Virus record (IMG/VR): IMGVR_UViG_3300025168_000870
Span: 1-20,519 of that record
Source: a virus
Reading direction: 5' to 3' (one strand)
Length of the DNA: 20,519 nucleotides
In this document: in pieces, positions 1 to 18,439 of the stretch
How the letters are laid out: every line of letters starts with the position of its first letter
Numbering within the stretch: position 1 is the stretch's first letter
Notes under the pieces: generated by a model
The model's input: only the letters and a program-made list of their open reading frames with translations
Told to the model about the DNA's origin: nothing
The model's database searches: none
Translations under genes and position numbers: made by a program

Positions 1-224
1 TAGTGGTATCCAGCGGGTGCAGCTTGTCCTTGTACACCAACACGAGCGGCTTGTCCCCGTGGATCAACGGGGATAATTTGTCTCTGCATAACAGTAGGAG
101 CAGTTTGTACTTGCATAACAGTAGGAGCAGTTTGTACCTGTGGGCCAACGGGGGCGGCTTGTCCCTGTGGGCTTGTAGTAGTTTGAGTAGGAGTAGTAGG
201 TGAACTTGTGTTATGATATGACAT
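1..224 (-). CDS. Gln/Ala/Pro-rich 9-residue repeat protein (N-terminal part, cut by window edge)
   Basis: A reading frame opens at an ATG at 224-222 and stays open for 74 codons to the left edge, so only the N-terminus is visible. Residues 1-18 are Ser/Thr/Pro-rich low complexity. From residue 19 to 72 the protein is six tandem 9-residue units of the pattern xQxQxAPxx, for example PQVQTAPTV, MQVQTAPTV and VQGQAAPAG. I see no signal peptide or membrane segment in the visible part. The start lies 13 bases after the stop of the preceding gene in the same direction, and the leader contains AATAAATAA and no Shine-Dalgarno sequence, as for the other genes here. I do not recognise the family. Its place after the giant tail protein makes a virion-associated or fibre-like role possible, but this is inference. 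The opposite strand is also open here, but it lacks this gene-like spacing. Confidence 0.62.
   Translation of the reverse strand, partial: MSYHNTSSPTTPTQTTTSPQGQAAPVGPQVQTAPTVMQVQTAPTVMQRQIIPVDPRGQAARVGVQGQAAPAGYH
9..170 (-). repeat. Six tandem 27-bp (9-codon) repeats
   Basis: Six in-frame 27-bp units encode the 9-residue repeats of the protein at the left edge. Two units are almost identical at DNA level: the same 26 bases occur at 85-110 and again at 112-137. The outer units are diverged, for example QRQIIPVD and RGQAARVG. Near-identity at nucleotide level suggests recent duplication by slippage or unequal recombination. Confidence 0.85.
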
Positions 225-237: not shown

Positions 238-624
238 TTATTTACTACTTTCTGTTGTTTGTAATCCAACAGAAAATAATTCAATTGCAGAAGTTGAGTC
301 GTTGACAAAGTCAATTTCAGCAAAATAGCCTTTTAAACTGGCTGTATTTGCTTTTCTATTTTTAGCAAACATTAAAAAATCACTAACCACCGGACCTGTA
401 ACAATACTTTCATCGTAAAGCACAACTAATTTATTTCCTTCAAATGCTTCGTCCTCAGTTATTATATTAATAATTTCTCCTAAAAAAAGTATATTTCCAT
501 AAATACTAGAACTAAACGTATTGTTAGTTGATCCAACAGGTGTAGTTGGTACGTAAAAAGCTAAATCCCCAACTTGAACCGATGTGTTAATAGGGGTATC
601 ATATGTTATTAGTAATGTTTGCAT
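238..624 (-). CDS. Small hypothetical phage protein, 128 residues
   Basis: This complete frame runs from an ATG at 624 to TAA at 238-240. It sits 21 bases after the giant tail gene and 13 bases before the repeat-protein gene, so it belongs to the same right-to-left operon. The protein alternates short hydrophobic beta-like stretches (QTLLITYD, VGDLAFYVP, NILFLGEIINII, KLVVLYD) with polar turns, and ends in a Ser/Thr tail. A segment FAKNRKANTASLKGYFAEI followed by VNDSTSAIELFSVG looks like a conserved core of small proteins that I recall next to tail genes in marine phage contigs, but I cannot verify this. There is no signal peptide, no membrane helix and no Cys. It could be a small beta-barrel tail or fibre accessory protein. 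Function unknown. Confidence 0.75.
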   Translation of the reverse strand: MQTLLITYDTPINTSVQVGDLAFYVPTTPVGSTNNTFSSSIYGNILFLGEIINIITEDEAFEGNKLVVLYDESIVTGPVVSDFLMFAKNRKANTASLKGYFAEIDFVNDSTSAIELFSVGLQTTESSK

Positions 625-645: not shown

Positions 646-3600
646 TTAATCGGTAGTATATGATATATGGTCAAACGGTAAATGACCTGGCACCATTCCA
701 CCTGAAAAAATTTCTAGTGGATAGTGCTTGTCTTTACCCCATGCCGTTTGTATTGGTCCTCCTACTTTACCAAGTGGATCATTTGGATCATAAGGAGCGT
801 GAGCCGCAAGAGAATCACCAAATCCTCCCCCATAATGAGTCCACCCACTAGTAGGTGATGCCGCTAAAGTTCCATTTGCATCAACACCCCCAGGTATCAT
901 GTTTGTTTTTGCATAGTCTACTGTACCGACTATATAAAACTCTAATTCTCTATTTTCCTCTATGCCCCCCCAATTTGGATATCTCATATCTTGCGAGAAC
1001 CAGTCTTTTGATAGAAATGCTTTGCCACTATAATCATTTCCACTACTAGCATCTTCCCAGCAACCAAGTGTATTATTTCCCGGAAACGCAACGTACTGCC
1101 CTTCATGAGCCTGCAAATCCACAAACTGAGTTGGCCCCCAGGACGCTATTGGCATATCAAACTCTTTCCAATATATTCTAAACAATGGCTTATCAGGGTA
1201 TACTTCTTTTGAATAAGGACTATATCCACTTAAAGTATGTAGTTCTGGGAAATCAAATATTATTTTTTCAATATCATCACCCTGAACATGATACCCCTCT
1301 TGTGTTATTGTTACGCCATTATGGTTTACCGGATACGCATATACACAATCAGCAGGATTACCGTATGTAACAGCTGGGTCATAATTAAGTGCTTGAACAT
1401 TTGAACACCCAGCGTTATATGTACAACCATGTGTTTGAGCGCCAGTACCTCCGGTCTGTAAGGATGGGTACTCAGGATGATATATGTTTGCTGATGCATC
1501 ATAGTTGTTTGCATACGGATCAGTGCATCCAAAGTATGAACCATTAGGTATAGTAATTGATACAGGATATAAAGTTCCAGATGGATCGGCAGTGTGTTTT
1601 AAATCAGCGGTTATTACCCACTCCTTATTAAAAACTCCACTTTGTAAGTTTGAGGAGTTAATTTGATTACTTATGCCTGAGAAAAATAGATAGTTATCAG
1701 TAACGTTATAATCATCGATAGGATCAGGTTCGTAAAGATCTCTAAATTGAGGATAACCATTGGATTGCCCGCCTTTAATAAATATCATATTTCCTACTTT
1801 CCAATTTCCAGTAGCAAAATTTGGTGCTTCTAAAAAATTATACTGAACCATGATCTTATGATTACCTTGTCCTAACGCTCCATAATGAGGGACAACATGA
1901 ATAGATGGTGAATTAAACTCACAACAACTATTATCACCATTACACGGATTAATCGCGTTAGGAGCAAAATTATTAGCAGCATATCCAAGTATATTACCAA
2001 CGGCTGGCCATCCTGGATTCCAGGTAAAATTAGAGGAAGTAGTATAAATATTTCTATAAGACATTGTTGTATCCATACAACCTTCATACACACAAGAACC
2101 ATCATCTGTTATAGCGTATAAACTTGCATTATAGTTAGATGCTATAGGATCTGTACATCCTCCTTGAGAATAATACTGAGTTCCTGTTATTGGTCCGCAA
2201 GTGTAGGCATCCGCTCCGTTAAGCATGCCAACACTATCAAGTGTCCAAGTGTAATCTCCAGCAACTTGAGTGCCAAAGGCAGCAAGATGTTCAGCTAATT
2301 CAGAGGCTTCCCAGTGTCCAGCAACTCCATTATAAGAATTTTCGCAACTTTGAGCCCACATCCAATTTCCATAGCCAGGATGGCAATTATTTCCAAACCC
2401 ATCTTGTGAATTATAAGGTTGATAGGATGTAGTGTGGGTGGTAATGCCATCTGGAGCTGTAATGGTAATAGTGTAAAGGCTATGCTTACTAACGTGTGAC
2501 CAATCAGCAATTACACTCATTCCTGAAGCATTTATACGTATTTGTGGTGTTCCTATAAAGCCAGTGCAATCACCATAATCACAACTAGTATCCATTGTGT
2601 TTGCAGTAGAATCATAATTATTGGCTAATAAATTACCAGCTAAAGTTGTATTTCCATAACTGGGGAAGTGGTAGTTGGTACCGGTACTGTGAAGAGGTCC
2701 GTCCGTACACCCATAAGCTATAGCAATACAAGGATCTGTAGAATCAACCGAGGAAGTCTGTTGAATAGTTGCCGAAGAGTCATAATTAAACATTGTAGGA
2801 TCCATACAACCATAAATTCCAAGAGTTATACAAGCAGCTGGATCACTTCCTAACCAAGGACCACCACTACCATCAGTAACAGCAACCTCCCCATAAGCAT
2901 GCCAACAAGTATCGCAAAATTCTAGATAATTAGAATCCGTACACCCAGAGCAAGCGTCGTAATAACAAGAACTATCATCACTACTGGCCCAAGAATCATA
3001 ATTACAAGCTCCCCAACTACCTAATGGATTACTAGCTCCAGTATTATCCGTGCACCCAGGACCTGCACAAGAAGTATTACGGGAAGCTGCAAACCAATCT
3101 GTGTAAAATGTTCCTCCAACACTAGTGTCATTTACACCTCTAATTCTAATATTATAATACGTGCAAGCTACAAGTCCTGTGACCCAAAAATCATCTTGAT
3201 TATAAGGTGGTAAACCTTGAGCGATAGCGGGAGTGTAAGTTCCTGTCCCCATTGTTGATTGATTAGGATCCCAAATACCCCCGCCCCAACCAGAACCAGG
3301 AGCTACACCTTGCCATTCTATTTCGTAATAATCAGGAGCTGTTTCTCCTGCACCAAAACAGTTATGACAAAGAGCCATTAATCCAAGGGAAGTTGGCGTT
3401 TGGTACGGAAGTGTTAATGTCAGAAAGCCAGAGCCCCAATAGTTACATGCTCCACCGTTCATTCCAACATTATTAACACCAGGATATGCATTAATTTCAT
3501 CGCATTGTGCTGTAGTCGCACCATCATAATTTAACGCTGTAGGATCATCACAATACACACAAGAACCATCATCCGCAATTTGATTGTATCCCGCTGGGAT

Positions 3601-6600
3601 CCCATCATTCATATTAACGCCCCCATTACCATTAGACATAAGCCACCAGTAATTACACGGGTAAACATTATTTTGTGTGCCAAAAATTGTGCAAGCAAAG
3701 AAAGGGATCTCGCAAGTACCATTATCCGTATTAACATCAACAGCCGTATCATTAACGATAGGTATGAAATTAGATGCTAAAGAATTAGTACATCCTAAAA
3801 TTGATGCAATACAAGATCCATCATCAGTATTAGCTGTAGAGCTATAGTTGTAGAAGGAATTATAATTTTGTTGAATTGTGATAGTATTGTCAACACTATT
3901 ATCTGGAGTCGCATCAACTGAAGTCATGTAAGTACCTATGAATTGAGAAGAATCTGTACAGCCGAGTATGGTATTAATACAACTACCATCACTAACCGTA
4001 GCAAGTGGATTGCAATTAAGAGTATTGTTATAAGTGATTCCATCATCTATGAAAGTTCCGCAATCTATACAACCAGCTAAATAACAAGAACCATCATCAG
4101 TATTTACTAATGGATCATAATTAGTTTGAGTTAGATCCATACATCCATAAATAAAAGGAATACATGTCCCATCATCAACAACAGCGGACGCGTTATAGTT
4201 AAAAGAACCATCATCCGTACAACCATAAACACTACCTATAGCGGGTTGATTCGTAATACTACCTATGCCCTGTACATCAAAACTGCTCGTATCAAAGCCG
4301 CTTGTAATAATATTTACATCATTAACACCTACATTTTCACCTCGTATGTAATTAAACCACTTACCTTCTTTGTTTATGAATTCATCTACACTCCCGCTCT
4401 CTATATCTGTTTTTATATTATTAACATACCATCCGGTTTTAGGATCTAAATTATAATAGTTACTTTCAAGAAAAGTTCCAGTAATAACCGGTGACATTAA
4501 ATCAACACCGTACATGGTATTATAATCTACCATTGCGTTCACTTTAGATTGTGATCCCTCGTAATTTATAGTTGAAAATGATTTTACTGAGCCTGGAGAA
4601 TCACCGATAATAACTTTTAACGATGTTGGAGTAAAATTTTCTTCCCCATAAAACGTATTTCTAAGTTCATTATCATCGTGTTTCCATATTTTTCCTTCTA
4701 ATATAGTATAATAATCACCGGCAACACTAATGCCATATTCTGGATAAAATGATTTAAAACTAACCCAACCTCTTACTCTTTCATTAAAAGATATTGTTTT
4801 TGCAATTGTATCTCCTTTTATTGTAAGATTATAATCTTCTTTATTAGTATCAAAACTACCAATTATTTTATTCCCTAGTTTTAAGTTTTCATTAAACCAT
4901 CCTTCCATGCCATGATCCGAAATTGGGGTTAACCCATCTTGAGATAGTCTTAAAACTTTACCTCTTTGTTTATCAGTAAAATATACTCTAAATGCTTCAG
5001 CAGCAAATGATTCTGGGTTTTTAGAAATACCATAATCTCCGGAAAAAGGCATAGATTGTCCTAAAACTTTGTTAGAAGCTGTTAGGTTCACACTGCTATC
5101 CGCGTTGTATAAAGCATCTTTATTTGCCAGTATTTTCAGGACTTTATCTTCACATAATGCTATTAAATCAGAATCTCTAGCATAAAGTTTTTGTATACTA
5201 CCGTAACCAGGATTTAAATCTTTTGTTATTCCCTCTGCTGTAATAAATTGATTTAAATTGTTAACGTCCGAGGTAGAATTATATATTCCAGAGAATATTA
5301 AACCATGTTTTTTATATTGTTTTGTATAATTATTATTTACTTCAGTATTAACTTTGACACCATTTGATAAAAAAGGTTGATTAAAAGTATCTTTTATTCT
5401 ATTAGATTCAACACCATTTCCATAACTCCAACAATTAAACCAAGGTAAATCAAATGACGCTTTATATAAATTTTTATTTATATGGAAAAACCCTTGAGAT
5501 GTTTGCCCAAAACTACCAAAATAGGTTTTAGCCGTAATATCTGTTTTTAAAATAGTGCCATCTTTTAGTTCCAAGTTAATAATATCACCAACACTTGAGG
5601 TTCCAAAAAGTGTTATGCCACCAAAAATAGATTCATCTCTTTTTACAGTAATTCTATTTGGTGCCTCCCAGTTTATAATTGTGAAAGGAATATTTCTTAT
5701 TGTACCTTTTTGCCCTAGGTAAAATACATCTTTAGAAGTAATTTCGGTTAGTTGGTGCGGTATTGATTGACCAACCTCATAATATAAATTAACATCTGTA
5801 ATAGGTTTTGGTTCAGTTTCAAAAACAGCAGGAGAGTAAACATCTCCAGCTTGCGGATCACTTTCTTTTAAAAACTCTAAAGTATAACCAACAGCTTTTA
5901 ATTGGGTTTGGTTAGGTAAGCCAATCTGCGTCAGGTAATTTGAAGCTGCTGTCGGTGAAAAACCATTACATGTAGCTTGTGTAAACACTAGATCTTGACC
6001 TGAAGTAGGATCTAAAGAATAATCAAGGGGTACAATGTAGTTGTCATATCCTCCAAATCTCACTATATTCCCTGCAACACCTCCCACTTCCTGTATCTGC
6101 TTGACTACAAGCCATTGACCAGGAACGTTTGTTGTACCAATTTTATGCAGTATCATGCCAACAGTAATCTTTGCGGCATTTCCAGTAACAGCGCTAGTTC
6201 CGGTTATTGAAGGAATATGAAGAGCTAAGAGATCTTTATCATTAGTATATTGCCAGTTATGATTAGTACCAGAAGTATTTGCTGTTAAAGTGATTTCTTC
6301 AGCCCCTTGTATTATAGTATTACTGCCTAAAATTGCACCACCAGCAATTGGACTCCAATGTGCATAGTGAGGATCTTGAGTAGAAAACATGAAATTTTTA
6401 CTAAAGTTTGCTGGGTTTGTATAACCACCAGCCTGATGATTACCCCATTTCCATGGCTCATCAAGAGCTCCATCAGGCAATTTTTCATATTCCGCAACAT
6501 TACCCAAAGAAATATTACCGTAACCAGTAGCATATCTAACTCGTTGAGAAACCGTTAAACCCGGTTGAATAGTATGTATTTTTTGAAGAGGATCTTCTCT

Positions 6601-9600
6601 CCATCTAAATTTAGCTCCTGGCATAAAGTTATTTGCAAAACTAGCCTCAGCAATATGGTTTGGATTTACATTAAGATTAAAAAAATCAGAGATAAAGTCA
6701 TATTCCTTGTTACCATAATTAAAATTGAAGTTTTTGCTATGTATTCCACCAAAACCTATATCAAGAATAGTTTTTCCATTTACTAGTGAACTTAAGTTCG
6801 TTTTTCCTTTTGCAGTATGCGCATCCACCGCTGTGTTATAAGGATCTGAAAGTAAATTATTAGAATTGTTGGAGCTAAAATACCTAGCGCAATCAAAAAA
6901 CCAGTAAGAAGTTTCAGGACTATTAAGAAACTCACCGTTATTATCATACATCTTCCAACCACTTTGTTCAGTATCATAATCAATCTTATTATCATTATCT
7001 AAATCTTCAAAACTAAATTCTTGAAACCAAGCTTGATAAAAATTCTTAAACCTACTAAAAGGAGGAGAGGTAAATTCTGAGGCGAAAATGTTTTGTGTAC
7101 TGTAAAAGGCCAACCACTCACCACTAAATATATCATTAATAGTGGCACCTTGAGGAAGGGGATCGGGGTAATGTTGCTGAACAAGATTAGAAAGACTATT
7201 AGCTGGTAGTTCAAAGGCGTCTATAAAATTGGTGTTTGAGCCCTGTGATGAATTCCCCGGAATTCCGGTGGCAAGTCCTCCATTACCAGCGTATGCGCCA
7301 GTAGTTGGCGGAATGCAAGTTTGGTTTAATAAATATATTTTTCTAGAAGCGACAACATCATAATCAACATCATCTCCTTGGTCAATTTTAACGCTTTGAT
7401 TAAAAATATCATCTCCAGCTATTCTAACAAAAAATCTACCATCAAACTCCGGCCTTCCTTTTTCTACATAATTATATACAGACACTGTTACGGTAGAATC
7501 AATATCAACTAAATTGCTAGCTAATATATCATCTAACTCTGCCCCAAGACTTTTCCTCAAAGTTACATTATATCTACTATTAACTGTTGATCCCATCAAT
7601 CCCCCAGCTCCATCCCAATCGCAATGAATACTATTTATCTCATATCTTTCTGTAGTAGATCCTGTTGAAGTATTGGTAAATTCTATGTATAAAATACCAT
7701 CATCAATATCATGCAAATTACCCATTGCCGTGCCGCTTAAGTAATCATAATTCATTTGGAATTGCTTGCTGCCTTTAAGTGGTAGATTAATTGCAGAAGA
7801 AAATAACTGATTAGTTAAATTAATTTCTTCTCCTAACTTAACTTTTTGACGTCTAACAGCGCTTGGAGCTTCGTTTGAAATATCTAAAACTTTATATTTG
7901 TTTTTATCACTAACAGCCCCGTAATCATTTACTCCTTTTTTAAGAATAATAAAACTATCCTCATCTAACTTATTTCTATCAGAGGATTGTATTGAAAGCC
8001 AATAATCATCATTATCTGTTTCATAATAACGATCTAATAATAAGTTATAGTATTCTCCTTCAGTTTCTTTAACATAAAATTTAAAATACTCTGTGTCTAT
8101 AGGTTTTTCCGTTACTGTAAACGCAACGTTTATTTTATTTTTATGTTGAGCAGTTGTCTGATCAAATCTTACCCCACCACTTGCGTGTGAAAACACAGCA
8201 GATTCTCTGTTGTAATTATCAGAATAAGTTAAACCCACTTGATAATCTCTTAGTGATTTTACAGAACTACCAACCCCAACTATACTAGAAGTATTTTGAG
8301 TTACTTCAAATTCAGGTAAATAAGATCTACCATCTAAATATTTTATATCAAATCCACTCGTATAATTTGCATATATTATTCTATTACCTATAACTTCCTG
8401 TGCTAAAGCCGTTAAAGGAACATCATCAGATCCTCTTAGTATTTGATTACTTGGTAGTATACCAGCATTACCACTAGATGTTATTGTAATCTCATCATTT
8501 ATCCATTTAGAATCTCCTCTTGTCAAAATAATATCACTTATTGAACCTATAAATGTTGATTGATTTGTTGAAAGATCTGTTATTAAAAATGTGTTGGTCG
8601 CCCCGGGGAAAGGAATAAAAGAATATGTTGGTTCTATTTTAAATGTTAAACTATGTCTTCCATTTCCACTTATACTTCTCGAACCAATCATATAATAACC
8701 ATCGCTATCTATTAGATCAACTCTAACCTCTCCTTGGCTATAATCCTCTATTAAAAAAGAGTAAGTATAAGTTTCGCCATCTTTTAAATTGGGTATATTT
8801 TCATGTTGTATTGTTTGACCAACGCCATTTCCATCCCAAATAAGTTTATCAAATGCAAATTCTACACTATCTAATGTGATATCATCATAAATATCATTAA
8901 AATTTGGATAAGGTAAAATATTTAAAGGACGCTCAATAAATTCCGTTAAATACACACCTGGCGAATAATCATCCTTATGAATTATTTCTATAGCCGCAAC
9001 ATCTTCGGGCATGTTTTCGCTTATAAAACCCGTAAGGGAAATATATTCAGCGGTATTAGTCATGCTTAAATTATATCCATCTGTTGAAGAATAATTATAC
9101 TGTCCAGGACTAAAAGCTGGTACGGAGAAAGGTGAAAATCCAGAGTATTCCCCATCTAAATACTTATAACGATAACCAAATCGTATAAATTTATCTTCAA
9201 AAATATACTCAGTTTCCATCTTTTTATCAATCACATATTTTAGAATACCATTAGCAGGTGCAACTGGAGGAGTTCCTGAAATAGATAATATTTGTAATCT
9301 TATATCACAATATATTCCATCCGCGACATAACTAGAGTATACTCTTGAATTACCAATTTGTGGAAGTATTACGCATGATATACGTGATCTACTTGTTAAT
9401 AGTGGTAAAGGAGGGATTGATGTTCCGTTAAATTCCTGTATATTCACAACATCTCCTAACCAAAAATCTAAAGTAAAATTTGTATCACCCGCGATGTTTG
9501 TATCTACTCTTACTGTAAAAATATCTCCCTTGGAAAGAGTTGAAAAATCATAATAAGGGGACGTTTGCAAACTAGACGATCCTTGGTTTAAGTTACTTGA

Positions 9601-10581
9601 AATTTGAAATATACCATTATAATCTTTATCATCACTTCTACTTGTTTTTGGAACTACACGCAAAGGGACAATTGGTCTATTTCTGATGACGGTGGTATGC
9701 TTAACGTTTAATGGAGTTGAAGTAGAGCTATTTGAAGTTCCATACTCATTGTTATAATTCAATAATATAGTTTGCTGATTACCGTCTATATTTGTACCCT
9801 GCTTACATCTCGTAATATTTATTTTCTTAGGTTCGTTATAACCGTCTGTCCAAAAAAGTAAATCATCTATAATATTTATAGCTGTTATTTGACTTTCGGA
9901 ATTGAAAGAAAGCGAAGAGACCTCACCCTTAGGTGAAAAAGTCATATAATCAATTATAGAAGTGTCATTGCCTGGGAATAAACTTCCCGGTATATCCTTG
10001 TTTAACTTCCAGTTTGTCCAATAAGGACCAGTATACTGCAAATAAGCGGTAGTTATATCCAAGTTCAAAAATAAATCTTCTCCTTGCTGGTTATAGCAAG
10101 CAACAAGCATTTCAGGACTAATATCCATACCACCAGCTTCATTATGTATTATAATATTTGAAGAGCCATTTGTTAAAAAGGTATCCGGATCTATTAATAA
10201 CGGTTCGTCATCAGAAGCGTAGTCATGTCTAGTTACTCTAACATCGCCATAAGACACTAGTACGGGTGTAACAACCCCGTCTTTGTACTCTAGTATAATA
10301 CTTTTTTGTTTATTATATCTTCTTTTGCTGCATACAAACCAATAAATTGCATTAGTTTTTTCATCAGAAACTGTACCGATACAAATAGGTTCTTCTGGCA
10401 AGAAATTTTGATCACTTATCTCACTGTTTCCTAATATATTTTGTATAACCCCCATATTAGATGTATCCGAAGTAGAAACTTGCACATTCATAGCGTCTCT
10501 ATATTCGCCGTTAGGAACAAGTCTATCATCGAGATCTTTGTTCATTTTTCCCCCAGTAAACTGATGTTTAATATCTGGCAT
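646..10581 (-). CDS. Giant tail hub/stabilisation-like protein fused to a Cys/Asp-repeat adhesin region, 3,311 residues
   Basis: One uninterrupted frame starts 3 bases after the stop of the connector-like gene. Residues 1-60 carry a Gly-rich opening (FTGGKMNKDLDDRLVPNGEY, then AMNVQV) that I associate with large tail stabilisation or hub proteins (P22 gp10 or T7 gp12-like position) of marine and crAss-like phages. Residues 60-2100 are mostly beta-rich, with a conserved-looking FSTINYEGSQSKV block near residue 2005 and EGKWFNYIRG shortly after. Residues 2120-3082 hold fourteen units of the pattern GC[T/M/I]D...NY...DDGSC, interrupted by probable beta-sandwich inserts near 2385-2505, 2673-2805 and 2890-3014. 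Residues 3083-3311 form a unique Trp/Gly/Tyr-rich C-terminal domain. There is no signal peptide or transmembrane helix, as expected for a virion protein. It probably combines the tail nozzle or hub with the receptor-binding part. The hub assignment is by position and remembered motifs; the repeats are seen directly. Confidence 0.78.
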   Translation of the reverse strand: MPDIKHQFTGGKMNKDLDDRLVPNGEYRDAMNVQVSTSDTSNMGVIQNILGNSEISDQNFLPEEPICIGTVSDEKTNAIYWFVCSKRRYNKQKSIILEYKDGVVTPVLVSYGDVRVTRHDYASDDEPLLIDPDTFLTNGSSNIIIHNEAGGMDISPEMLVACYNQQGEDLFLNLDITTAYLQYTGPYWTNWKLNKDIPGSLFPGNDTSIIDYMTFSPKGEVSSLSFNSESQITAINIIDDLLFWTDGYNEPKKINITRCKQGTNIDGNQQTILLNYNNEYGTSNSSTSTPLNVKHTTVIRNRPIVPLRVVPKTSRSDDKDYNGIFQISSNLNQGSSSLQTSPYYDFSTLSKGDIFTVRVDTNIAGDTNFTLDFWLGDVVNIQEFNGTSIPPLPLLTSRSRISCVILPQIGNSRVYSSYVADGIYCDIRLQILSISGTPPVAPANGILKYVIDKKMETEYIFEDKFIRFGYRYKYLDGEYSGFSPFSVPAFSPGQYNYSSTDGYNLSMTNTAEYISLTGFISENMPEDVAAIEIIHKDDYSPGVYLTEFIERPLNILPYPNFNDIYDDITLDSVEFAFDKLIWDGNGVGQTIQHENIPNLKDGETYTYSFLIEDYSQGEVRVDLIDSDGYYMIGSRSISGNGRHSLTFKIEPTYSFIPFPGATNTFLITDLSTNQSTFIGSISDIILTRGDSKWINDEITITSSGNAGILPSNQILRGSDDVPLTALAQEVIGNRIIYANYTSGFDIKYLDGRSYLPEFEVTQNTSSIVGVGSSVKSLRDYQVGLTYSDNYNRESAVFSHASGGVRFDQTTAQHKNKINVAFTVTEKPIDTEYFKFYVKETEGEYYNLLLDRYYETDNDDYWLSIQSSDRNKLDEDSFIILKKGVNDYGAVSDKNKYKVLDISNEAPSAVRRQKVKLGEEINLTNQLFSSAINLPLKGSKQFQMNYDYLSGTAMGNLHDIDDGILYIEFTNTSTGSTTERYEINSIHCDWDGAGGLMGSTVNSRYNVTLRKSLGAELDDILASNLVDIDSTVTVSVYNYVEKGRPEFDGRFFVRIAGDDIFNQSVKIDQGDDVDYDVVASRKIYLLNQTCIPPTTGAYAGNGGLATGIPGNSSQGSNTNFIDAFELPANSLSNLVQQHYPDPLPQGATINDIFSGEWLAFYSTQNIFASEFTSPPFSRFKNFYQAWFQEFSFEDLDNDNKIDYDTEQSGWKMYDNNGEFLNSPETSYWFFDCARYFSSNNSNNLLSDPYNTAVDAHTAKGKTNLSSLVNGKTILDIGFGGIHSKNFNFNYGNKEYDFISDFFNLNVNPNHIAEASFANNFMPGAKFRWREDPLQKIHTIQPGLTVSQRVRYATGYGNISLGNVAEYEKLPDGALDEPWKWGNHQAGGYTNPANFSKNFMFSTQDPHYAHWSPIAGGAILGSNTIIQGAEEITLTANTSGTNHNWQYTNDKDLLALHIPSITGTSAVTGNAAKITVGMILHKIGTTNVPGQWLVVKQIQEVGGVAGNIVRFGGYDNYIVPLDYSLDPTSGQDLVFTQATCNGFSPTAASNYLTQIGLPNQTQLKAVGYTLEFLKESDPQAGDVYSPAVFETEPKPITDVNLYYEVGQSIPHQLTEITSKDVFYLGQKGTIRNIPFTIINWEAPNRITVKRDESIFGGITLFGTSSVGDIINLELKDGTILKTDITAKTYFGSFGQTSQGFFHINKNLYKASFDLPWFNCWSYGNGVESNRIKDTFNQPFLSNGVKVNTEVNNNYTKQYKKHGLIFSGIYNSTSDVNNLNQFITAEGITKDLNPGYGSIQKLYARDSDLIALCEDKVLKILANKDALYNADSSVNLTASNKVLGQSMPFSGDYGISKNPESFAAEAFRVYFTDKQRGKVLRLSQDGLTPISDHGMEGWFNENLKLGNKIIGSFDTNKEDYNLTIKGDTIAKTISFNERVRGWVSFKSFYPEYGISVAGDYYTILEGKIWKHDDNELRNTFYGEENFTPTSLKVIIGDSPGSVKSFSTINYEGSQSKVNAMVDYNTMYGVDLMSPVITGTFLESNYYNLDPKTGWYVNNIKTDIESGSVDEFINKEGKWFNYIRGENVGVNDVNIITSGFDTSSFDVQGIGSITNQPAIGSVYGCTDDGSFNYNASAVVDDGTCIPFIYGCMDLTQTNYDPLVNTDDGSCYLAGCIDCGTFIDDGITYNNTLNCNPLATVSDGSCINTILGCTDSSQFIGTYMTSVDATPDNSVDNTITIQQNYNSFYNYSSTANTDDGSCIASILGCTNSLASNFIPIVNDTAVDVNTDNGTCEIPFFACTIFGTQNNVYPCNYWWLMSNGNGGVNMNDGIPAGYNQIADDGSCVYCDDPTALNYDGATTAQCDEINAYPGVNNVGMNGGACNYWGSGFLTLTLPYQTPTSLGLMALCHNCFGAGETAPDYYEIEWQGVAPGSGWGGGIWDPNQSTMGTGTYTPAIAQGLPPYNQDDFWVTGLVACTYYNIRIRGVNDTSVGGTFYTDWFAASRNTSCAGPGCTDNTGASNPLGSWGACNYDSWASSDDSSCYYDACSGCTDSNYLEFCDTCWHAYGEVAVTDGSGGPWLGSDPAACITLGIYGCMDPTMFNYDSSATIQQTSSVDSTDPCIAIAYGCTDGPLHSTGTNYHFPSYGNTTLAGNLLANNYDSTANTMDTSCDYGDCTGFIGTPQIRINASGMSVIADWSHVSKHSLYTITITAPDGITTHTTSYQPYNSQDGFGNNCHPGYGNWMWAQSCENSYNGVAGHWEASELAEHLAAFGTQVAGDYTWTLDSVGMLNGADAYTCGPITGTQYYSQGGCTDPIASNYNASLYAITDDGSCVYEGCMDTTMSYRNIYTTSSNFTWNPGWPAVGNILGYAANNFAPNAINPCNGDNSCCEFNSPSIHVVPHYGALGQGNHKIMVQYNFLEAPNFATGNWKVGNMIFIKGGQSNGYPQFRDLYEPDPIDDYNVTDNYLFFSGISNQINSSNLQSGVFNKEWVITADLKHTADPSGTLYPVSITIPNGSYFGCTDPYANNYDASANIYHPEYPSLQTGGTGAQTHGCTYNAGCSNVQALNYDPAVTYGNPADCVYAYPVNHNGVTITQEGYHVQGDDIEKIIFDFPELHTLSGYSPYSKEVYPDKPLFRIYWKEFDMPIASWGPTQFVDLQAHEGQYVAFPGNNTLGCWEDASSGNDYSGKAFLSKDWFSQDMRYPNWGGIEENRELEFYIVGTVDYAKTNMIPGGVDANGTLAASPTSGWTHYGGGFGDSLAAHAPYDPNDPLGKVGGPIQTAWGKDKHYPLEIFSGGMVPGHLPFDHISYTTD
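1330..4224 (-). repeat. Fourteen coded Cys/Asp repeat units (GCTD...NY...DDGSC type)
   Basis: Within the giant protein, units begin at about residues G2120, G2146, G2170, G2207, G2263, C2344, G2509, G2546, G2591, G2624, G2808, G2834, G3018 and G3058. The core reads GCTDxxAxNYDxxAxxDDGSCxY. Complete short units (~25 residues) stand at the front, while later ones are stretched by insertions or separated by whole domains. Each unit has a Cys near each end and a run of Asp/Asn, which suits a disulfide-closed or calcium-binding loop. That role is inferred. The type is common in secreted proteins of marine Flavobacteria. The units are diverged at DNA level, so this is not a fresh expansion. Confidence 0.88.
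3058..3440 (-). other. Probable fibronectin type III-like insert in the giant protein
   Basis: Between repeat units six and seven (about residues 2385-2508) lies a segment with the look of an FN3-type beta sandwich. It has an early Pro-rich strand, YYEIEWQG, then a linker rich in Gly/Trp, then ACTYYNIRIRGVND and YTDWFAAS, which match the usual E- to G-strand pattern of FN3 domains (tYxixvRavn...ysdw...). FN3-like domains are frequent in phage tail proteins, where they are thought to bind carbohydrate on the cell surface. The call is by eye only. Confidence 0.5.
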
Positions 10582-10584: not shown

Positions 10585-11451
10585 CTAGTGTTTTATTTGT
10601 TTCGATTTACCTCTTAAGATTTGAGTGATTTCTTCTAATTTAATATTTGACAATCTAAGTTTCGCTTGTCTCGTAGCTGCAAATTTTTCTTTTTTATACC
10701 TCATGATTATATACTCTGGTATATTAATTCTTGTTGATAGAATAGCATGCATTATAGATTTGTACATAGCTTCTTCAGCAAACTTATGTACTTTCATTTC
10801 CGCGTCTGTGCCAAGAGAGTCACTGATATACTTTAAGATTAAAGTTTTTCCGTTAATGTTAGAACTAAAATGTATTTTTCCTGTATTATCGTCTATATAA
10901 AAAGATCCATTAGCTTGAGCATGTTGAGGATCTAATCCAAATCTTGACCCTTCTGCTGGCCAATAAGTATCATCTTGATAATCATCTTGATTTTCAGACG
11001 AAGTTGTTGAATTGTAGTTCTCCCAAGTTGAAGAACTATTATCTGTATTTAATTCGCTGCCTGTAAAAGCATAACTACCATCACTATTTTGGGTGATATC
11101 AGTAGGATTGGATGTTTTTATAGCTGGATATAATACATGCTCTATACCCGCACCATCACTCCAAGATATCTTTATATAATTAACGTAATCTTGTGGGAGT
11201 GTCATTTGAAGAGTTGCAGGTACTACTATCTCTTGTGCTTTTGTAGATTTAAACGTATCAAAAGATAATTCTTGTAAAGCTCTTTGAGCATGAAAAGCAA
11301 CATCTACTTTTTTAATTTTAGATATAATCTTATCCTCTCCAGTGTAAGCGATTACGAATTGATTTACAATATCATTTAATGAAGTAAACTGATAGTTTCC
11401 AAAATCCGTTCCCTGGTAATACGCCTTCTGTGTTTCGTCTAATAATCCCAT
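10585..11451 (-). CDS. Putative tail adaptor / ring (head-tail connector) protein, 288 residues
   Basis: Complete frame with ATG at 11451 and TAG at 10585-10587, only 3 bases before the giant tail gene. Residues 24-65 are helical (SLNDIVNQFVIAY, then FHAQRALQELSFDTF). Residues 75-110 give a strand-rich core with LPQDYVNYIKISW. Residues 125-165 form an acidic Ser/Asn/Asp-rich insertion. Residues 205-288 are helical with VHKFAEEAMYKSI, then PEYIIMRYKKEKF, and a basic C-terminus LRGKSKQIKH. Helices flanking a beta core, together with its position between the capsid genes and the tail hub, fit the T7 gp11/P22 gp4-like adaptor or crAss-like ring proteins. Such proteins form a ring joining portal to tail. 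The assignment rests on context, remembered motifs and size, and I would not choose among the ring-protein subtypes. Confidence 0.66.
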   Translation of the reverse strand: MGLLDETQKAYYQGTDFGNYQFTSLNDIVNQFVIAYTGEDKIISKIKKVDVAFHAQRALQELSFDTFKSTKAQEIVVPATLQMTLPQDYVNYIKISWSDGAGIEHVLYPAIKTSNPTDITQNSDGSYAFTGSELNTDNSSSTWENYNSTTSSENQDDYQDDTYWPAEGSRFGLDPQHAQANGSFYIDDNTGKIHFSSNINGKTLILKYISDSLGTDAEMKVHKFAEEAMYKSIMHAILSTRINIPEYIIMRYKKEKFAATRQAKLRLSNIKLEEITQILRGKSKQIKH

Positions 11452-11455: not shown

Positions 11456-12142
11456 TTATTGTTTTTCTTGTTGGACTTTGTTTTTTTCCATAGCCATTGC
11501 TGCGCCAGAAATATCTTGTCTATTTAATGTCACACCAGCTAAACCTAATATTTTATATACTAATTCTGCTTGCTCTGATGAGTGAAGTCCAAAATCAGAA
11601 CTTTTAGCGGGATCATACAAAGCCCTTTCACCAACAATAACAAATCCCCATTTCACTTTCGTTGGTTTTTTAATATATTCAATTAAGATTGGTTTTAATG
11701 TAGTTGGATACACATAAATTCCTTTCCTTTCTAAAAAGAAAACTGGTCTATCATCACTAGGTGTTGTTAAAGGAGTTAACAACATTTGCTTTAATTCTTT
11801 TCTATTAACTTCATCTAAAACAGCTCCATCTTCCGCGCTAACAGTTCCTAACTTGTAAACTGTATTTGGTAATGTACCGTAATTACTCGTCATAGTCAGT
11901 TCTTCATCTGTAACTTTTAACGGACTTAATTTTTCATGTAATAAAGATACCATGTTAGAATACTCTGTATTATTACTAAGTGCTCTACCAAATTGGTTTA
12001 TGTCATAAAAATACTGTTCAAGTATTTCGTTTTGCGCTTGGTTAGCGAATAAGTTAAATTCTTGAGGTGTTATATAACCTCTTTGTTCTTTGTTAGCTAA
12101 AGCTAAAACTGTTTGATAAACTGTATCTACACTTACTGCCAT
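11456..12142 (-). CDS. Putative neck / ring protein, 228 residues
   Basis: Complete frame from ATG at 12142, 6 bases after the mini-protein stop, to a TAA whose end is 4 bases before the next gene. The N-terminal 50 residues (VYQTVLALANKEQRGYITPQ, then EFNLFANQAQNEILEQYF) form helices that I associate with small neck or ring proteins conserved near the connector genes of crAss-like and marine podovirus-like phages. Residues 90-160 are beta-rich, with FFLERKGIYVYP and ILIEYIKKP. Residues 185-228 are helical and end in a Lys/Gln-rich tail. The protein probably contributes to the portal-tail junction together with the 288-residue protein. Both have a helix-beta-helix layout and may be distant paralogues; this is a guess. 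There are no Cys residues and no catalytic motif. Confidence 0.62.
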   Translation of the reverse strand: MAVSVDTVYQTVLALANKEQRGYITPQEFNLFANQAQNEILEQYFYDINQFGRALSNNTEYSNMVSLLHEKLSPLKVTDEELTMTSNYGTLPNTVYKLGTVSAEDGAVLDEVNRKELKQMLLTPLTTPSDDRPVFFLERKGIYVYPTTLKPILIEYIKKPTKVKWGFVIVGERALYDPAKSSDFGLHSSEQAELVYKILGLAGVTLNRQDISGAAMAMEKNKVQQEKQ

Positions 12143-12148: not shown

Positions 12149-12316
12149 TTATTTATTGTTATAAGGAAACAATCTATTTAAAGTATCTTTTTTCTGTCCA
12201 CATCCACAATCCTTTTTAGTTACTTCACTTATTTTATCTACAACTTTCTTTATTCCAGTTGCTTTTGTAATTTTTTCTATTGTATCTCCTAATCCTTTAG
12301 ATTTTAGTTTTTCCAT
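12149..12316 (-). CDS. Cys-Gly-Cys mini-protein, 55 residues
   Basis: A short complete frame, ATG at 12316-12314 and TAA at 12149-12151, fills the gap between the 276- and 228-residue genes. It codes for a Lys-rich helix (KLKSKGLGDTIEKITKATG, then IKKVVDKISEV) followed by KKDCGCGQKK and LNRLFPYNNK. It fits its neighbours tightly (6 bases to the next start) and has coding-like periodicity with no rare features, so I take it as a real gene. The C-x-C-G cluster with flanking Lys and the LFPY ending look like a family of tiny proteins found in Bacteroidetes phages and prophages, as far as I remember. Function unknown. Two close Cys could bind metal only as part of an oligomer. A structured RNA element lies just upstream. 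Confidence 0.72.
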   Translation of the reverse strand: MEKLKSKGLGDTIEKITKATGIKKVVDKISEVTKKDCGCGQKKDTLNRLFPYNNK

Positions 12317-12328
12317 ATAATTAAATTT

Positions 12329-12367
12329 TGTAGTTTACGATCGCTCCGTAGAGCGACCGCATCTACA
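12329..12367 (-). promoter_or_regulatory. Stem-loop with cUACGg tetraloop upstream of the mini-protein gene
   Basis: On the minus strand CGGTCGCTC, TACG, GAGCGATCG form a 9-bp hairpin (12338-12359) with one G-U wobble and a C(UACG)G loop, a member of the extra-stable UNCG class. Outside it, TGTAG (12363-12367) can pair with CTACA (12329-12333) across a small internal loop. The 3' side is followed by AAATTTAATT and then the start codon, without a run of T, so it is not a standard intrinsic terminator. It lies between the stop at 12374 and the ATG at 12316. Possible roles are an RNA processing site, mRNA stabiliser or translation control. The role is inferred; the structure is seen. Confidence 0.6.
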
Positions 12368-12373
12368 GTTAGA

Positions 12374-13204
12374 TTAATTTAATCTTTTTTCAATATTGGA
12401 GTAAATCTCCATTCCTTCATCAGTTTTAAACCAAGCGGCTAAAGCTGAATAAGGATGTTCATCAAAAGGAACATTCATTAGTTTTCTATCATTAGATCCC
12501 CAACTGAACGTTCTTTGATCAGAGGATAATTTTAATATCCCCATTTCCGTTGCTTTAATACCAAAGTTTCTAAGTACAACATTTTCATCATTCACTAATT
12601 CTAAGAACAATACTGGATTTCTCTTAGCATATAATAGTAAATCTCTTTTAAGCTCCTTAGAACTCATGTCTGATACTTTGGAGCCAATCTCAACACGCAT
12701 AACAGCTTCAGCCATATCAATGTCTAGGTTTTGAGCAGCATTTAATGCTTCAATTTCCATTTCTAATACATCAATTTCACTAGCCGCCGTAACTTCTGGT
12801 TTCCATTCATAAAATAATTTATCTTTATGTGGATGATATATAGAAAGTAATTTTTGTAAAACCGTTTGTTCTTTTGGAATCATTAAAACACCAGATTTAA
12901 AAATAATGTGTTCTAATCTTTGGTCTCCTTTCATTTCATCTACAAATGATGTTTTCTGGTTTTGACAATACTTAAGTTCTCTTTCATAACCCTTTACTTC
13001 ATCAAACCAATATATGTTAGCTGATTTTATAATGTAAGATAAAGGTTTTTTATTTCCTTTTAAGTGATAAACCCTATCTTTTATTACCCAACTATTTTTT
13101 TCCTTTTTTGGTAATGGTTTTTCCATAACCGGTGTTTCAACTTCTTCGAAGTCTTTTTCTATTAAAGGTTCTACAACCTTTGTTGTTTTTTGTTTTTTTG
13201 CCAT
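12374..13204 (-). CDS. Conserved-looking hypothetical phage protein downstream of capsid, 276 residues
   Basis: Complete frame starting 74 bases after the capsid stop, beyond a terminator. The first 37 residues are Lys/Glu/Pro-rich and likely disordered. Residues 38-130 form a mixed core with WVIKDRVYHLKG, PLSYIIKSANIYWFDE, ERELKYCQNQKTSFVDE and GVLMIPKEQTVLQKLLSIYH. Residues 140-200 are helical (ASEIDVLEMEIEALNAAQNL, then ELKRDLLLYAKRNP). Residues 200-276 end with FGIKATEMGI and FSWGSNDRKLM. The core strikes me as a family placed after the capsid gene in marine phages, but I cannot name a function. There are no catalytic triads, zinc sites or membrane segments. A head-completion, minor capsid or head-decoration role would fit the position. 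The terminator between it and the capsid gene suggests lower expression than the capsid. Confidence 0.8.
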   Translation of the reverse strand: MAKKQKTTKVVEPLIEKDFEEVETPVMEKPLPKKEKNSWVIKDRVYHLKGNKKPLSYIIKSANIYWFDEVKGYERELKYCQNQKTSFVDEMKGDQRLEHIIFKSGVLMIPKEQTVLQKLLSIYHPHKDKLFYEWKPEVTAASEIDVLEMEIEALNAAQNLDIDMAEAVMRVEIGSKVSDMSSKELKRDLLLYAKRNPVLFLELVNDENVVLRNFGIKATEMGILKLSSDQRTFSWGSNDRKLMNVPFDEHPYSALAAWFKTDEGMEIYSNIEKRLN

Positions 13205-13278: not shown

Positions 13279-14775
13279 TTATTTCATTAACATGAAATTG
13301 TTAGCACCTTGTGTAATTAAACATCTTTCTGATAAGTAATGTACTTGCATTGCATCTAAATCAGATGTAACAGCACCCACGGAGCCAGTGATCCAAGATT
13401 TTAGTTTTCTTGACTCAGTTTGTGAAGCTCTATATCTAACATGTAAGAAAGGACGCTTAAGGTTCTTTCCTAATTGTTGGTCATAAACCGTAGATGTACC
13501 AGCTGGGATAATAACTCCTCTAAGTGGAGCTACAGCATCTCTAGCGTTAATACCACCTCTTGTAGCTTTGTCATTTAAGTATCTAAAGTCAGATTTGTAG
13601 AAATCGTAAGATCCACGTCTGAAACCAGAAAAACCTAAGTTCAACGCCATGTCCTCAGAATTGTCAAATACTCCATAAGAAGTACCTCCAGCACCGTAAG
13701 AATTCATAGAAGCTAACATGTCATCCATCGCTAACGAAGTAGATCTGTTAACAAACATCATGTTTTCTTCAATTGCACCTTGAGAATCAAACTCAGCTAA
13801 GATAGCGTCGAATTCAGCTAAATCAGTAGCAGCATTAACGCCAGTAACACCAGTGGTAACATTACCTCTAGTTTCAATAGCAGCGAATAGTCCCTCAGAA
13901 CCAAAAAGATTTCCAGCAGTACCAACAGTAGAATCAGCAGCGGTTAAAGTTGGAAGACCAACAACACTTTCTAGCATTGACATTTCTAAATAATCTGTAA
14001 AACGCATTCTAGTTTCACCTTCAGCTTTTAAGTACCATAAATAACCATCAGCACCACCATCTTCACCAGTAACCTCAACCCAACCAATTTGAGAAGCATC
14101 AGATCCAGAGATCTCATAGTAATCTTTAAGTATGATTGGTTTGTTGCTAAATGAAGTGTGTTGTGGTTCAGGATTACCAAAACCAGCAGTAGTAGAAGCA
14201 GAAGCACCTTGCCCTTGTCTTCCTTTACCCCATTCAGAACCATAAACTAACACCGTACAAGCTTCAGTTGTTCCTGTACCAAACGCAGGGGTTTGATCAA
14301 TGAAAGTATCTTCATAAGGAATTAACGTAGCTGTAGTAGCAGCAGCAGCTGTACAAATACATTTAATAGTACCTTCAGCAGTAGCCACCATACACATATC
14401 ATTGATACGTATAGCGTGTTCACCTGAAGCAGTTGCGTTACCATCAATATCGAAAGCTGGTGTAAAAACACCATCAGTATTGTTGATTGCACCCGTGTAA
14501 GATATATGTAATCTACCTTGTTCTGACCAAATTACTTGGTCTGAGGACATTGACTCCTCTGCTCCAACTTGAGAAAGAAAACCTGCGATTGTTCTGTTAC
14601 CGAACACTTCAGCTTCTTTTTCCATAAGATCTGGAACGTATTGTTGACCCCAGTCGTTACCGTCTGCGGTAAAATCGATATAATTTGAAATTAGTGTAGC
14701 TTTTTTAGGAGCTGGTACACTATTCAAACTACCGGCGGTTCCTGTATGCCCAGGACCCGGATTTGAAATTGCCAT
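13279..14775 (-). CDS. Major capsid protein, 498 residues
   Basis: Complete frame from ATG at 14775 to TAA at 13279-13281, between the scaffold-like gene and a terminator. Residues 1-70 are a Pro/Gly-rich arm leading to NYIDFTADGNDWGQQYVPDL and a helix. Residues 85-200 are a Thr/Ala/Gly-rich beta region that could be a surface insertion. Residues 205-300 carry KDYYEISGSD and RMRFTDYLEMSMLESVVG, the helical spine region of HK97-like folds. Residues 320-400 form a second alpha/beta part, and the end reads VHYLSERCLITQGANNFMLM. Size, position after portal and scaffold, and isolation by a terminator all fit the main shell protein. The fold is probably HK97-like as in all tailed phages. I see no obvious prohead cleavage site near the N-terminus. 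The sequence recalls capsid proteins of marine crAss-like relatives, from memory only. Confidence 0.85.
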   Translation of the reverse strand: MAISNPGPGHTGTAGSLNSVPAPKKATLISNYIDFTADGNDWGQQYVPDLMEKEAEVFGNRTIAGFLSQVGAEESMSSDQVIWSEQGRLHISYTGAINNTDGVFTPAFDIDGNATASGEHAIRINDMCMVATAEGTIKCICTAAAATTATLIPYEDTFIDQTPAFGTGTTEACTVLVYGSEWGKGRQGQGASASTTAGFGNPEPQHTSFSNKPIILKDYYEISGSDASQIGWVEVTGEDGGADGYLWYLKAEGETRMRFTDYLEMSMLESVVGLPTLTAADSTVGTAGNLFGSEGLFAAIETRGNVTTGVTGVNAATDLAEFDAILAEFDSQGAIEENMMFVNRSTSLAMDDMLASMNSYGAGGTSYGVFDNSEDMALNLGFSGFRRGSYDFYKSDFRYLNDKATRGGINARDAVAPLRGVIIPAGTSTVYDQQLGKNLKRPFLHVRYRASQTESRKLKSWITGSVGAVTSDLDAMQVHYLSERCLITQGANNFMLMK

Positions 14776-16018: not shown

Positions 16019-18439
16019 TTATCTAGGATCAAACGATCCTAAATCAAAACCACCGCCAAGTATATCATTACCTGAAGACTCAAAGTTTTTAGGTGGTTTG
16101 TCTTTTTTTCTTTGATCTATAAGTTCACTTTGTTGTGAGGCTTGTATTTTTGTTCTTTCATCCTTGCGATCTTCTTTTTCTTTTTCCCTACCCTTGAATC
16201 CCTCAACCTCCATACTTTTTAATCGCAAATTCATTTGAAATTCAAGTTGCATTAATTCTTTTTTATGATGAACTTCTTGTTGCATTTTGCCACTATTCAT
16301 CTCAGCTTTTAATTGTTCTAATTGAGCTTGGCTTTGTAATAATGCTTGATTTTTAAAAACTTCAGCTTTAGCGGCTGCTTCTTGAGTTTGTGCGTTTGCT
16401 TGAGCTTGAGCTTGTATATTTTGCTGTTGTAAAGCTTGATCCATCTTTATCTTCTTTTTTCTACGTATTTTAAGAAGTTGATTTGCAAGTTTTATATTGT
16501 TTATATTTCTTAAATCAATAACATCTTCTAAATCAATGCTATTTTGCTGAATAGCCATTTGGATATTGTTTTCTAATTTAAGTTTTTCTTCTTCGTCTGG
16601 TTGAAGGTTTATGAATATACCAAAGTCATATAAGTTTAAATCGCTTATTTCTTGTAAAGTAGCCATGTTATGAGCACCAATAGCTTGGATAAAAGCTTCT
16701 TTTGTTGGGGAATATTCTATAATATCTGATATTCTAAGTGATAAACATTCTGCTATTTGTGTTGTTAAAAATAAACCGGCGTTCAATATATGTCTTGTCG
16801 CTGTGTTTGAATTTGCCGCCGCTAGCTTTTGCACTCCAACTAATGCGTTTGCATCTGGCATACTACCATCTCTAGCTTCGTTTAATCCAGTTACATCTCT
16901 TATCATTTGAAGATAATAGTTATACGTACCAATTAAAGCCTGCATTTTATTACCACCACTACCACTTGTAATTTCTTGAATAGGTACTTTACCTGGATTC
17001 ATATCACCATCAGAGGTAAACGATCTACCAATAACAGATCCTGTTTGGAAGAACATGTTCAAGGCTTCTTGAGGATTATAATTTGTTCCATTCCCTAAAT
17101 CAATCTCAGCTAAACCATCAGCATCTAAATACACACCATCTGGCACCATGCGTGACATTACTTGTTGAAGTTTTAAGTGTGTTAATTGAATCATATCAGC
17201 AAATCCAGTGATTCTTTTAACTAAAGAGTCTATTTGACCATTATACATTCTAGGAGCTACAATAGCATAATTCATTTTTACTTTTGTATAATCACTTTTA
17301 GGTCGCATCATGTTTTTTGCCATCTCCCATTTAAGTAGCGTATCTGTACCAAGAATAATAGCTCCATCATAAAGACACTCTATAGATCTTGACATTCTAG
17401 AATATCCACCTTCTTTATCTTCTGGAGGATTGAAATTATCATCTTTAGGTATAATCTTTTCAGAACCAGTGAAAGTTTCTTTTATTTTATAAACTTCATT
17501 CATATAAGTTTTATAATTAAAATATAAAACTTGAATAGTATTTTCGTCTTCTTTGTCTGCAGAAAATCTAGTAGTGTTATTATTTCTATTAAAACTCTTA
17601 CTTTTCATTATATCCTCAAGATCAGATTCTGATAAGTGAGGAAATTGTTTTGCTAATTCGTTTACTGGAATAGATTTAACTTCACCAACGTAATATATAT
17701 CATCAAAATAAGGAGAGTCAGTATAAGAGTAAACAAGGTTTGCGGGGTCTACATAATCTATAATAACGCCCTCTGACGTATTGAAAGTAGTTTTTTCCGC
17801 GGCAATACCAATAGTAACTAAATCATAAAACGAACGTTTTTTCGTTAAATTATAATTATTCCCTTCCATTAAAGTTGTTATAGCTTGCTCTTCGGCTATT
17901 TCTATAGATTGCTTATAAGAAATTTGCATATGTAGTTCCAATTCCTCCTCTGTTTCTGGTAATTTCCTTGGATCATTTTCGTAAAGATCAACACCGAAAT
18001 GCTTTATAGCAGCGTCATTAAAATCTTTAGATTTCATATCGTTAACCACCGATTGTACATAAGCCGATCTTTTACTCATTCCATAAGGATCTTGAGAAAC
18101 AGCTTTAACATCATACATTCTATCTGAAATACCATTTACAACGATATCTACAAACTTAGATATAATTGGAACAGGCTTCCAATCTAAATTTAAATAGGAC
18201 AAATCACCATTTATAGATAACTCATCCTTATATTTTTGAATAGACTGTTCGCCTCTAGCGTATAATCTTAACTTATGAAAATCATTGCTATTAGATTTAT
18301 ATCTATTAACACTTCTATCATTATTAAACCATTCTTGTTCTATAGCTTTACCAACTTTTAAACCATACTCATAGCTAAGTTTCTCAGCATCACCTACGGT
18401 TTGACTTGGAAAATAACTTTTAATGCCAGACTCTGCCAT
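16019..18439 (-). CDS. Portal protein with long coiled-coil C-terminal tail, 806 residues
   Basis: Complete frame beginning 5 bases after the terminase stop and ending 26 bases before the scaffold-like gene. Residues 50-110 contain LRLYARGEQS and LNLDWKPVPIISKFVDIVVN, typical of the portal wing start. Residues 175-215 have EEQAITTLMEGNNYN and FYDLVTIGIAAEKT. Residues 400-435 form the long helix QLTHLKLQQVMSRM. Residues 515-552 read VTGLNEARDGSMPDANALVG and then QKLAAANSNTATRH, a stem and crown signature I associate with portals of crAss-like and related marine phages. Residues 610-660 continue with PDEEEKLKLENNIQMAIQQ. From about 665 to 785 the tail is Gln/Lys/Glu-rich, a likely coiled coil (QQQNIQAQAQANAQTQ). 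The portal forms the dodecameric vertex through which DNA is packaged by the adjacent terminase. A long charged tail may reach into the head or bind scaffold; this is inferred. Confidence 0.9.
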   Translation of the reverse strand: MAESGIKSYFPSQTVGDAEKLSYEYGLKVGKAIEQEWFNNDRSVNRYKSNSNDFHKLRLYARGEQSIQKYKDELSINGDLSYLNLDWKPVPIISKFVDIVVNGISDRMYDVKAVSQDPYGMSKRSAYVQSVVNDMKSKDFNDAAIKHFGVDLYENDPRKLPETEEELELHMQISYKQSIEIAEEQAITTLMEGNNYNLTKKRSFYDLVTIGIAAEKTTFNTSEGVIIDYVDPANLVYSYTDSPYFDDIYYVGEVKSIPVNELAKQFPHLSESDLEDIMKSKSFNRNNNTTRFSADKEDENTIQVLYFNYKTYMNEVYKIKETFTGSEKIIPKDDNFNPPEDKEGGYSRMSRSIECLYDGAIILGTDTLLKWEMAKNMMRPKSDYTKVKMNYAIVAPRMYNGQIDSLVKRITGFADMIQLTHLKLQQVMSRMVPDGVYLDADGLAEIDLGNGTNYNPQEALNMFFQTGSVIGRSFTSDGDMNPGKVPIQEITSGSGGNKMQALIGTYNYYLQMIRDVTGLNEARDGSMPDANALVGVQKLAAANSNTATRHILNAGLFLTTQIAECLSLRISDIIEYSPTKEAFIQAIGAHNMATLQEISDLNLYDFGIFINLQPDEEEKLKLENNIQMAIQQNSIDLEDVIDLRNINNIKLANQLLKIRRKKKIKMDQALQQQNIQAQAQANAQTQEAAAKAEVFKNQALLQSQAQLEQLKAEMNSGKMQQEVHHKKELMQLEFQMNLRLKSMEVEGFKGREKEKEDRKDERTKIQASQQSELIDQRKKDKPPKNFESSGNDILGGGFDLGSFDPR

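Follow-up and report, generated by a model that had tools for sequence, protein, structure and literature searches.

What kind of protein is encoded by an open reading frame (ORF) in which a phage tail protein appears to continue into an array of cysteine-containing units of the type found in bacterial secreted proteins? We addressed this question for the window, the whole stretch of 20,519 bases that makes up one complete IMG/VR virus record (below, L numbers denote the other loci compared with it). The initial annotation had described a single unbroken chain of 3,311 residues in which a tail hub-like protein is fused to a host-recognition part, and the frame was indeed found to be uninterrupted:

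646-10581, minus strand: single 3,311-residue ORF with an ATG start, muzzle (tail nozzle) plus cysteine-unit array; a fusion also present in 56 of 83 related loci

Gene order around the long ORF

The genes that flank this ORF were assigned from matches to PHROG families and from their positions.

3-224, minus strand: next ORF, truncated where the contig stops; its start is rich in Gln, Pro, and Ala and has short repeats; in relatives, this is the place of tail gene c4
10585-11451, minus strand: structural protein c2 (phrog_13977), placed like a tail-barrel ring protein
11456-12142, minus strand: structural protein c1 (phrog_14543), placed like a tail-barrel ring protein
13279-14775, minus strand: major capsid protein (phrog_13704, also by synteny)
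16019-18439, minus strand: portal protein (phrog_6547)
18445-20517, minus strand: terminase large subunit (phrog_6681), 5' end cut

The order TerL-portal-x-MCP-x-x-x-MUZ is common to the window, Pervagoviridae, and elemoviruses, and two of the x genes before the muzzle (MUZ) are ring-like; in this structural module the muzzle gene immediately follows those for the ring proteins. The ring-like c2 product is ∼290 residues long in the window and in some relatives and ∼450-470 residues in most others (e.g. L006:8624-9994), a difference that corresponds to an optional extension of ∼165 residues.

Residues 1-2108 form a crass-like muzzle

The N-terminal part of the chain was compared with protein families, cultured phages, and structures.

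4258-10581, minus strand: muzzle part, residues 1-2108 (phrog_14478, E 2e-115; tblastn matches to cultured-phage muzzles)
4339-4662, minus strand: PF25729 crAss_MUZ_C, residues 1974-2081 (E 6.3e-7; 30.2 bits, curated cut-off 27)

In tblastn searches, residues 1-2108 matched structural proteins (muzzles) of Cellulophaga phi38:1 (gp97), Calle_1, Maribacter Panino, and Flavobacterium elemo phages, with 28-29% identity between these cultured-phage muzzles and that of the window. The related locus L022 matched a further muzzle family (PF25731 crAss_MUZ, E 5e-14). When the muzzle end of another relative, L021, was modeled and searched with Foldseek, the sole match below 0.001 was 7qol_P from the phicrAss001 tail assembly (E 2.4e-4, probability 0.99), a chain of 1,354 residues, about the length of the muzzle gp44. 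The AlphaFold model used in that search, which included the terminal domain described below, was of low confidence: its core was poor and only the barrel of the terminal domain was confident. The same model gave matches to the LKA1 and phi297 tailspikes over ∼90 columns, with E-values that were not significant and probably from the terminal domain region. Searches of PDB sequences with the whole protein and with the muzzle profile, and of NCBIfam with the window protein, returned no matches.

The Pfam, PHROG, and tblastn matches, together with gene order and Foldseek, thus make the "hub or nozzle" of the initial annotation a crass-like muzzle. From these sequence and model comparisons, we conclude that residues 1-2108 constitute the muzzle of a crass-like phage, the counterpart of phicrAss001 gp44. 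In phicrAss001, six muzzle subunits assemble at the end of the tail and act as a gate for ejection (PMC10172136). In five relatives (L014, L021, L066, L070, and L087) the muzzle is divided between two ORFs, with the break elsewhere, upstream, and the N-terminal part encoded by gene c15.

A degenerate array of cysteine units follows the muzzle

The remainder of the chain differs in composition from the muzzle: 12 cysteines are found in residues 1 to ∼2,108, where there is no repeat motif, and 49 in the rest.

1345-4224, minus strand: degenerate array of 21-residue Cys/Asp units with intervening domains, residues 2120-3079 (motif scan and shuffles)
4084-4224, minus strand: two canonical units, residues 2120-2140 and 2146-2166 (unit pattern; pLDDT about 87-93 over residues 2122-2161)
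646-1344, minus strand: C-terminal domain of the arm, residues 3080-3311, presumed tip; no relative found

The last 1,201 residues contain 13 GCx[DN] unit starts (shuffle mean 0.9) and 6 [DN][DN]G[ST]C closings (shuffle mean 0.02), numbers that none of 5,000 shuffles reached. Fourteen units had been proposed for this region. That count needs correction: the 14th unit, at ∼2344 (CDDPTALNYD), is without its leading G, and the number of canonical 21-residue units is just two; the other units are degenerate, being stretched or broken by inserts of 15-180 residues. Residues 2120-3311, which we term the arm, hold other domains between and after the units, the final one being 230 residues long. A rigid stalk on the outside of the virion had been proposed by the initial annotation; its stabilization by disulfides and calcium would be plausible from the unit.

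The final domain had been called unique, and this description holds: no relative of it was detectable, and a search for related loci by that domain was empty. AlphaFold predictions of the arm were confident for the first few units and for short patches only, and Foldseek searches with the arm model gave no matches. No Pfam or NCBIfam entry for the 21-residue unit was found in the searches made, domain profile searches detected no Por_Secre_tail sorting domain in the window, and a literature search on the motif letters found no relevant paper.

The muzzle terminal domain T lies in the next ORF

In cultured relatives, a conserved G[IL]GxV segment of the muzzle is followed by a terminal domain of ∼110 residues, T. 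In the window, the last conserved muzzle segment is ..QGIGSI, the array starts there, and T was identified as a separate ORF.

238-624, minus strand: T, a 128-residue ORF, displaced muzzle terminal domain

This ORF is co-linear with the C terminus of the Panino muzzle to its end (E 6e-11) and matches the T profile with E 1e-37, the profile having itself included the ORF. In addition, phrog_18548 matches both muzzle residues 1927-2014 and this ORF. The insertion point is fixed, as the alignment stops at GLGxV and is followed by T in cultured phages and by GCTD units in marine ones. Because the array occupies the boundary between muzzle and T, T is displaced into the next ORF. Neither this displaced domain nor an exchangeable site had figured in the initial annotation.

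Two sister loci, joined with 99% support, have the two arrangements. In L021 (MUZ-T) the fused stretch reads ..NINTSLQIGDVIYF.., and in L015 (MUZ-array, then T) the separate T past the array reads ..LNTSLQVGDIIYY... Each locus that extends far enough downstream contains exactly one T, which is fused, right after the array, or at least one gene later. A MAFFT alignment that mixed separate T domains with muzzles misplaced T and was left unused.

Further observations concern the surroundings and fold of T. T and c4 are swapped in L042, L060-L062, L067-L069, L072, L074, L076, L077, L079, and L086, where c4 comes before T and not after it; c4 has a weak match to a distal tail protein family (phrog_1302). 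In L008, a SET-domain protein (19492-19884; PF00856, E 8e-7) lies between the array-bearing muzzle and T. An equivalence between the last hairpin of T and that of gp44 (WAYIKL..EFHDAIIHYF and GYYAEIDF..ELFSV) was considered, as the hairpins are in register by eye and in hhalign over 23 columns; profile tests with controls were not significant, so that the equivalence is tentative.

The fusion is the majority state and has been switched repeatedly

With a profile of the muzzle C-terminal core, at least 452 related loci were detected in IMG/VR. From these, the 80 with the best matches were taken and combined with three further loci, giving 83 (L006-L088), a set that includes a few duplicates of one contig or near-copies. 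The muzzle core and at least two GCx[DN] units share one ORF in 56 of the 83 loci, a proportion that may be biased because all four query sequences carried an array. The muzzle is fused to T, with the array absent, in 7 loci, and neither array nor T is present in the muzzle ORF in 20. The arm, which ranges from none to about 1,300 residues among relatives, is thus not required by all.

The initial annotation had noted that homologs split near residue 2110 would speak against a genuine fusion. Such homologs exist, since the array is its own gene in L041, L054, L057, and L077, but with 56 of 83 loci fused, a stand-alone array gene is one of several natural states. In a quick tree of the muzzle core, 15 changes of architecture were counted, of which at least 5 are forced by well supported forks, which indicates that the arrangement has been switched repeatedly on the muzzle tree. 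In L041 (11167-16306), where the muzzle is short, the array is encoded by two stand-alone ORFs that lie in tandem between it and T; each of the two starts with the junction segment of the muzzle in copy (FDxADSSFQGLG), the pattern of an arm fission plus duplication.

The cysteine unit is shared with secreted proteins of marine Flavobacteriales

Among the relatives, 243 units are exactly 21 residues long and have the pattern GC[TM][DN]..A.N[YF][DN]..A..[DN][DN]G[ST]C. A scan of 84,980 species genomes for the unit gave 247 loci, the best 80 of which were mostly from marine Flavobacteriales metagenome-assembled and single-amplified genomes. Five bacterial ORFs that were scanned have the Por_Secre_tail sorting domain of type IX secretion (T9SS) and signal-peptide-like starts, and some have MAM, fn3, PKD, or reprolysin domains. 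Among the phage arms, 8 of 42 contain fn3 and no sorting domain was found. The second part of the chain had been likened to bacterial secreted repeats, and the 21-residue unit in secreted proteins of marine Flavobacteriales agrees with this.

The arm and terminal domain of L050 are co-linear with a Flavobacteriales protein, L117 (39% identity over 585 residues; 41% over 171 residues with the units masked). This co-linearity implies that a module including the tip passed between host and phage, and on sequence comparison the transfer would most simply have run from host to phage. The capture of a host surface module, suggested by the initial annotation, thereby gains direct support in a relative. 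The tip of the L050 arm (12311-12814) is Lcl_C/DUF1566-like and is shared with secreted proteins of Flavobacteriales; in the close relative L047 the tip is diverged or different (24% identity).

The unit had also been described as known mainly from marine Flavobacteria. It is common there, but it also occurs in tail-fiber-cluster proteins of cyanophages and once in perforin-2, and so is not confined to Flavobacteria. In Synechococcus phages it is found in structural genes beside the short tail fibers, as in the cyanomyovirus tail-fiber clusters of S-CAM4 (NC_031900.1, L179) and S-CAM3 (NC_031906.1, L180). Mammalian perforin-2 (MPEG1; PDB 6u23, chain A, 331-352) contains one nearly exact copy, matched with an E-value of 0.063 by the consensus unit of window residues 2120-2166 and located near a truncated EGF-like linker. 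This part of perforin-2 has been termed MACPF-EGF, and in it a truncated EGF-like module joins two domains (PMC6989145).

The far end of the arm diverges between close relatives

As the window has no close relative, divergence along the arm was tested in the related loci. In close pairs, the far end of the arm was the most divergent part (24-36% identity), with muzzles at 84-95% and T at 85-90%. The identities over the successive thirds of the arm were 67, 56, and 24% in L047/L050 (core 91%, T 90%), 63, 46, and 33% in L069/L086 (core 84%, T 85%), and 67, 35, and 36% in L068/L079 (core 95%, T 88%). The contrasts were weaker in L016/L018, L031/L032, and L007/L008; the tips of the first two of these pairs diverge little, and capsid gene c3 is also divergent (72-75%) in the pairs with low tip divergence.

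Divergence of the distal end between conserved flanks is the signature that would be expected of a host-contacting tip. The host recognition proposed for the arm is thus supported indirectly, by a pattern that is clear in three close pairs and weaker in the others. Because the inter-unit and terminal domains of the window have no relatives, its tip function is argued from the related loci only.

Discussion

The above results show that the window encodes a marine crass-like muzzle and that T is encoded in the next ORF. We consider it probable that the array is an exchangeable adhesin arm and that the boundary between muzzle and T is a plug-in site for receptor-binding arms. The muzzle has taken up this arm of secreted-protein-type cysteine units and linked domains between ..QGIGSI and T. 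Such arms would protrude from the tail tip, in six copies if the muzzle is hexameric as in phicrAss001, and the distal domain may contact the surface of a flavobacterial host or its polysaccharide. Host recognition by the arm could then couple to opening of the gate. As a separate subunit, T may still dock on the muzzle. Tentatively, the muzzle may be a split protein in which T in trans completes or caps the C-terminal fold, freeing the C terminus as a site for the exchange of host-derived arms and so for changes in host recognition; the constant retention and usual adjacency of T favor its rejoining the muzzle in trans. Other adsorption genes are probably encoded elsewhere in the genome.

Generic binding has been proposed for BACON arrays and for Ig-like domains on phages. 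In the same way, the arm might bind generic polysaccharide, mucus, or particles instead of a specific receptor and keep the phage where hosts are dense. The units do accompany MAM, PKD, and fn3 domains in bacterial proteins, and tandem BACON repeats have been linked to the tail proteins of crAssphage (PMC6949934), but the fast turnover of tips suggests specific, changing targets and no glycan-binding domain was recognized in the window, so that we regard generic binding as rather unlikely. We also find it unlikely that the arm, as a passive whisker or spacer, gives the tail tip more length or stability in sea water and leaves receptor recognition to other fibers. Neither the fastest divergence at the far end nor the exchange of terminal domains is expected of a pure spacer, and the range of arm lengths, down to none, also weighs against one, even though the domains of the bacterial proteins, too, are often spaced by cysteine units and fn3 and phicrAss001 has separate tail fibers on docking hubs (PMC10172136).

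The existence of stand-alone array genes in four loci, two of which begin with a copy of the QGLG segment, and the separability of T itself would fit a long ORF that is translated and then cut at the junction, the arm being a separate virion or released protein and the fusion an arrangement for expression only. Neither a protease gene nor a site for one was found, however, and the fusion is the majority state, which makes such cutting improbable. The bacterial character of the array could also have arisen if a muzzle gene and a bacterial gene were wrongly joined during assembly, to which we assign a negligible chance: the same junction, flanked by phage genes, recurs in dozens of metagenome assemblies that are independent of one another, which excludes a join artifact and upholds the initial annotation's view of the fusion as real.

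Comparison with known systems

Crass-like phages rank with the most abundant of all known phages, and their muzzle has been viewed mainly as a gate. The muzzle-array group consists of widespread ocean phages related to crAssphage. If true, an arm on the gate protein would tie contact with the receptor directly to the opening of the gate and would mark the genome region that determines which hosts the uncultured marine members can infect.

In the literature searched, we found no secreted-type adhesin arm at a muzzle C terminus with displacement of the terminal domain, and no marine crass-like muzzle reported to carry a cysteine array. The closest structural counterpart, phicrAss001 gp44 (PDB 7qol; PF25729/PF25731), is alike in its conserved C-terminal muzzle segments, its position after the ring proteins, and the Foldseek match. 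Unlike the window protein, it has 1,371 residues, with the muzzle fold as its last part, and a separate gene for a terminal domain has not been described; the published variation in muzzle length consists of insertions in the crass and IG2 domains, with no C-terminal adhesin array (PMC10172136). The muzzles of phi38:1 (gp97), Calle_1, elemovirus, and Panino are direct homologs in the same module and gene order, but where encoded by one ORF they have 1,324-1,470 residues and 3-4 cysteines, with T fused and the array absent.

The T9SS cysteine-unit proteins of marine Flavobacteriales share the tandem 21-residue unit, often fn3, and, in L050/L117, the terminal domain. They carry signal peptides and Por_Secre_tail, whereas the phage arm has neither and sits on a muzzle. 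In the T4-like cyanophages S-CAM4, S-CAM3, and S-RIM44 (Kyanoviridae), structural proteins of the tail-fiber cluster carry the cysteine unit of the array, but these are separate appendage genes with one to a few units and no fusion to a nozzle. The BACON repeats of crAssphage tail proteins (PMC6949934) are likewise tandem surface-type domains acquired by crass-like tail proteins; they are a different domain and are described as tail-associated, not as an insertion between muzzle and T that displaces a domain. Already known are muzzle proteins, cysteine-unit proteins of Flavobacteria, and arrays of repeats, such as BACON, on the tail proteins of crass-like phages. The movement of a domain to its own gene, making room for an arm, would be an unusual and testable route of tail evolution.
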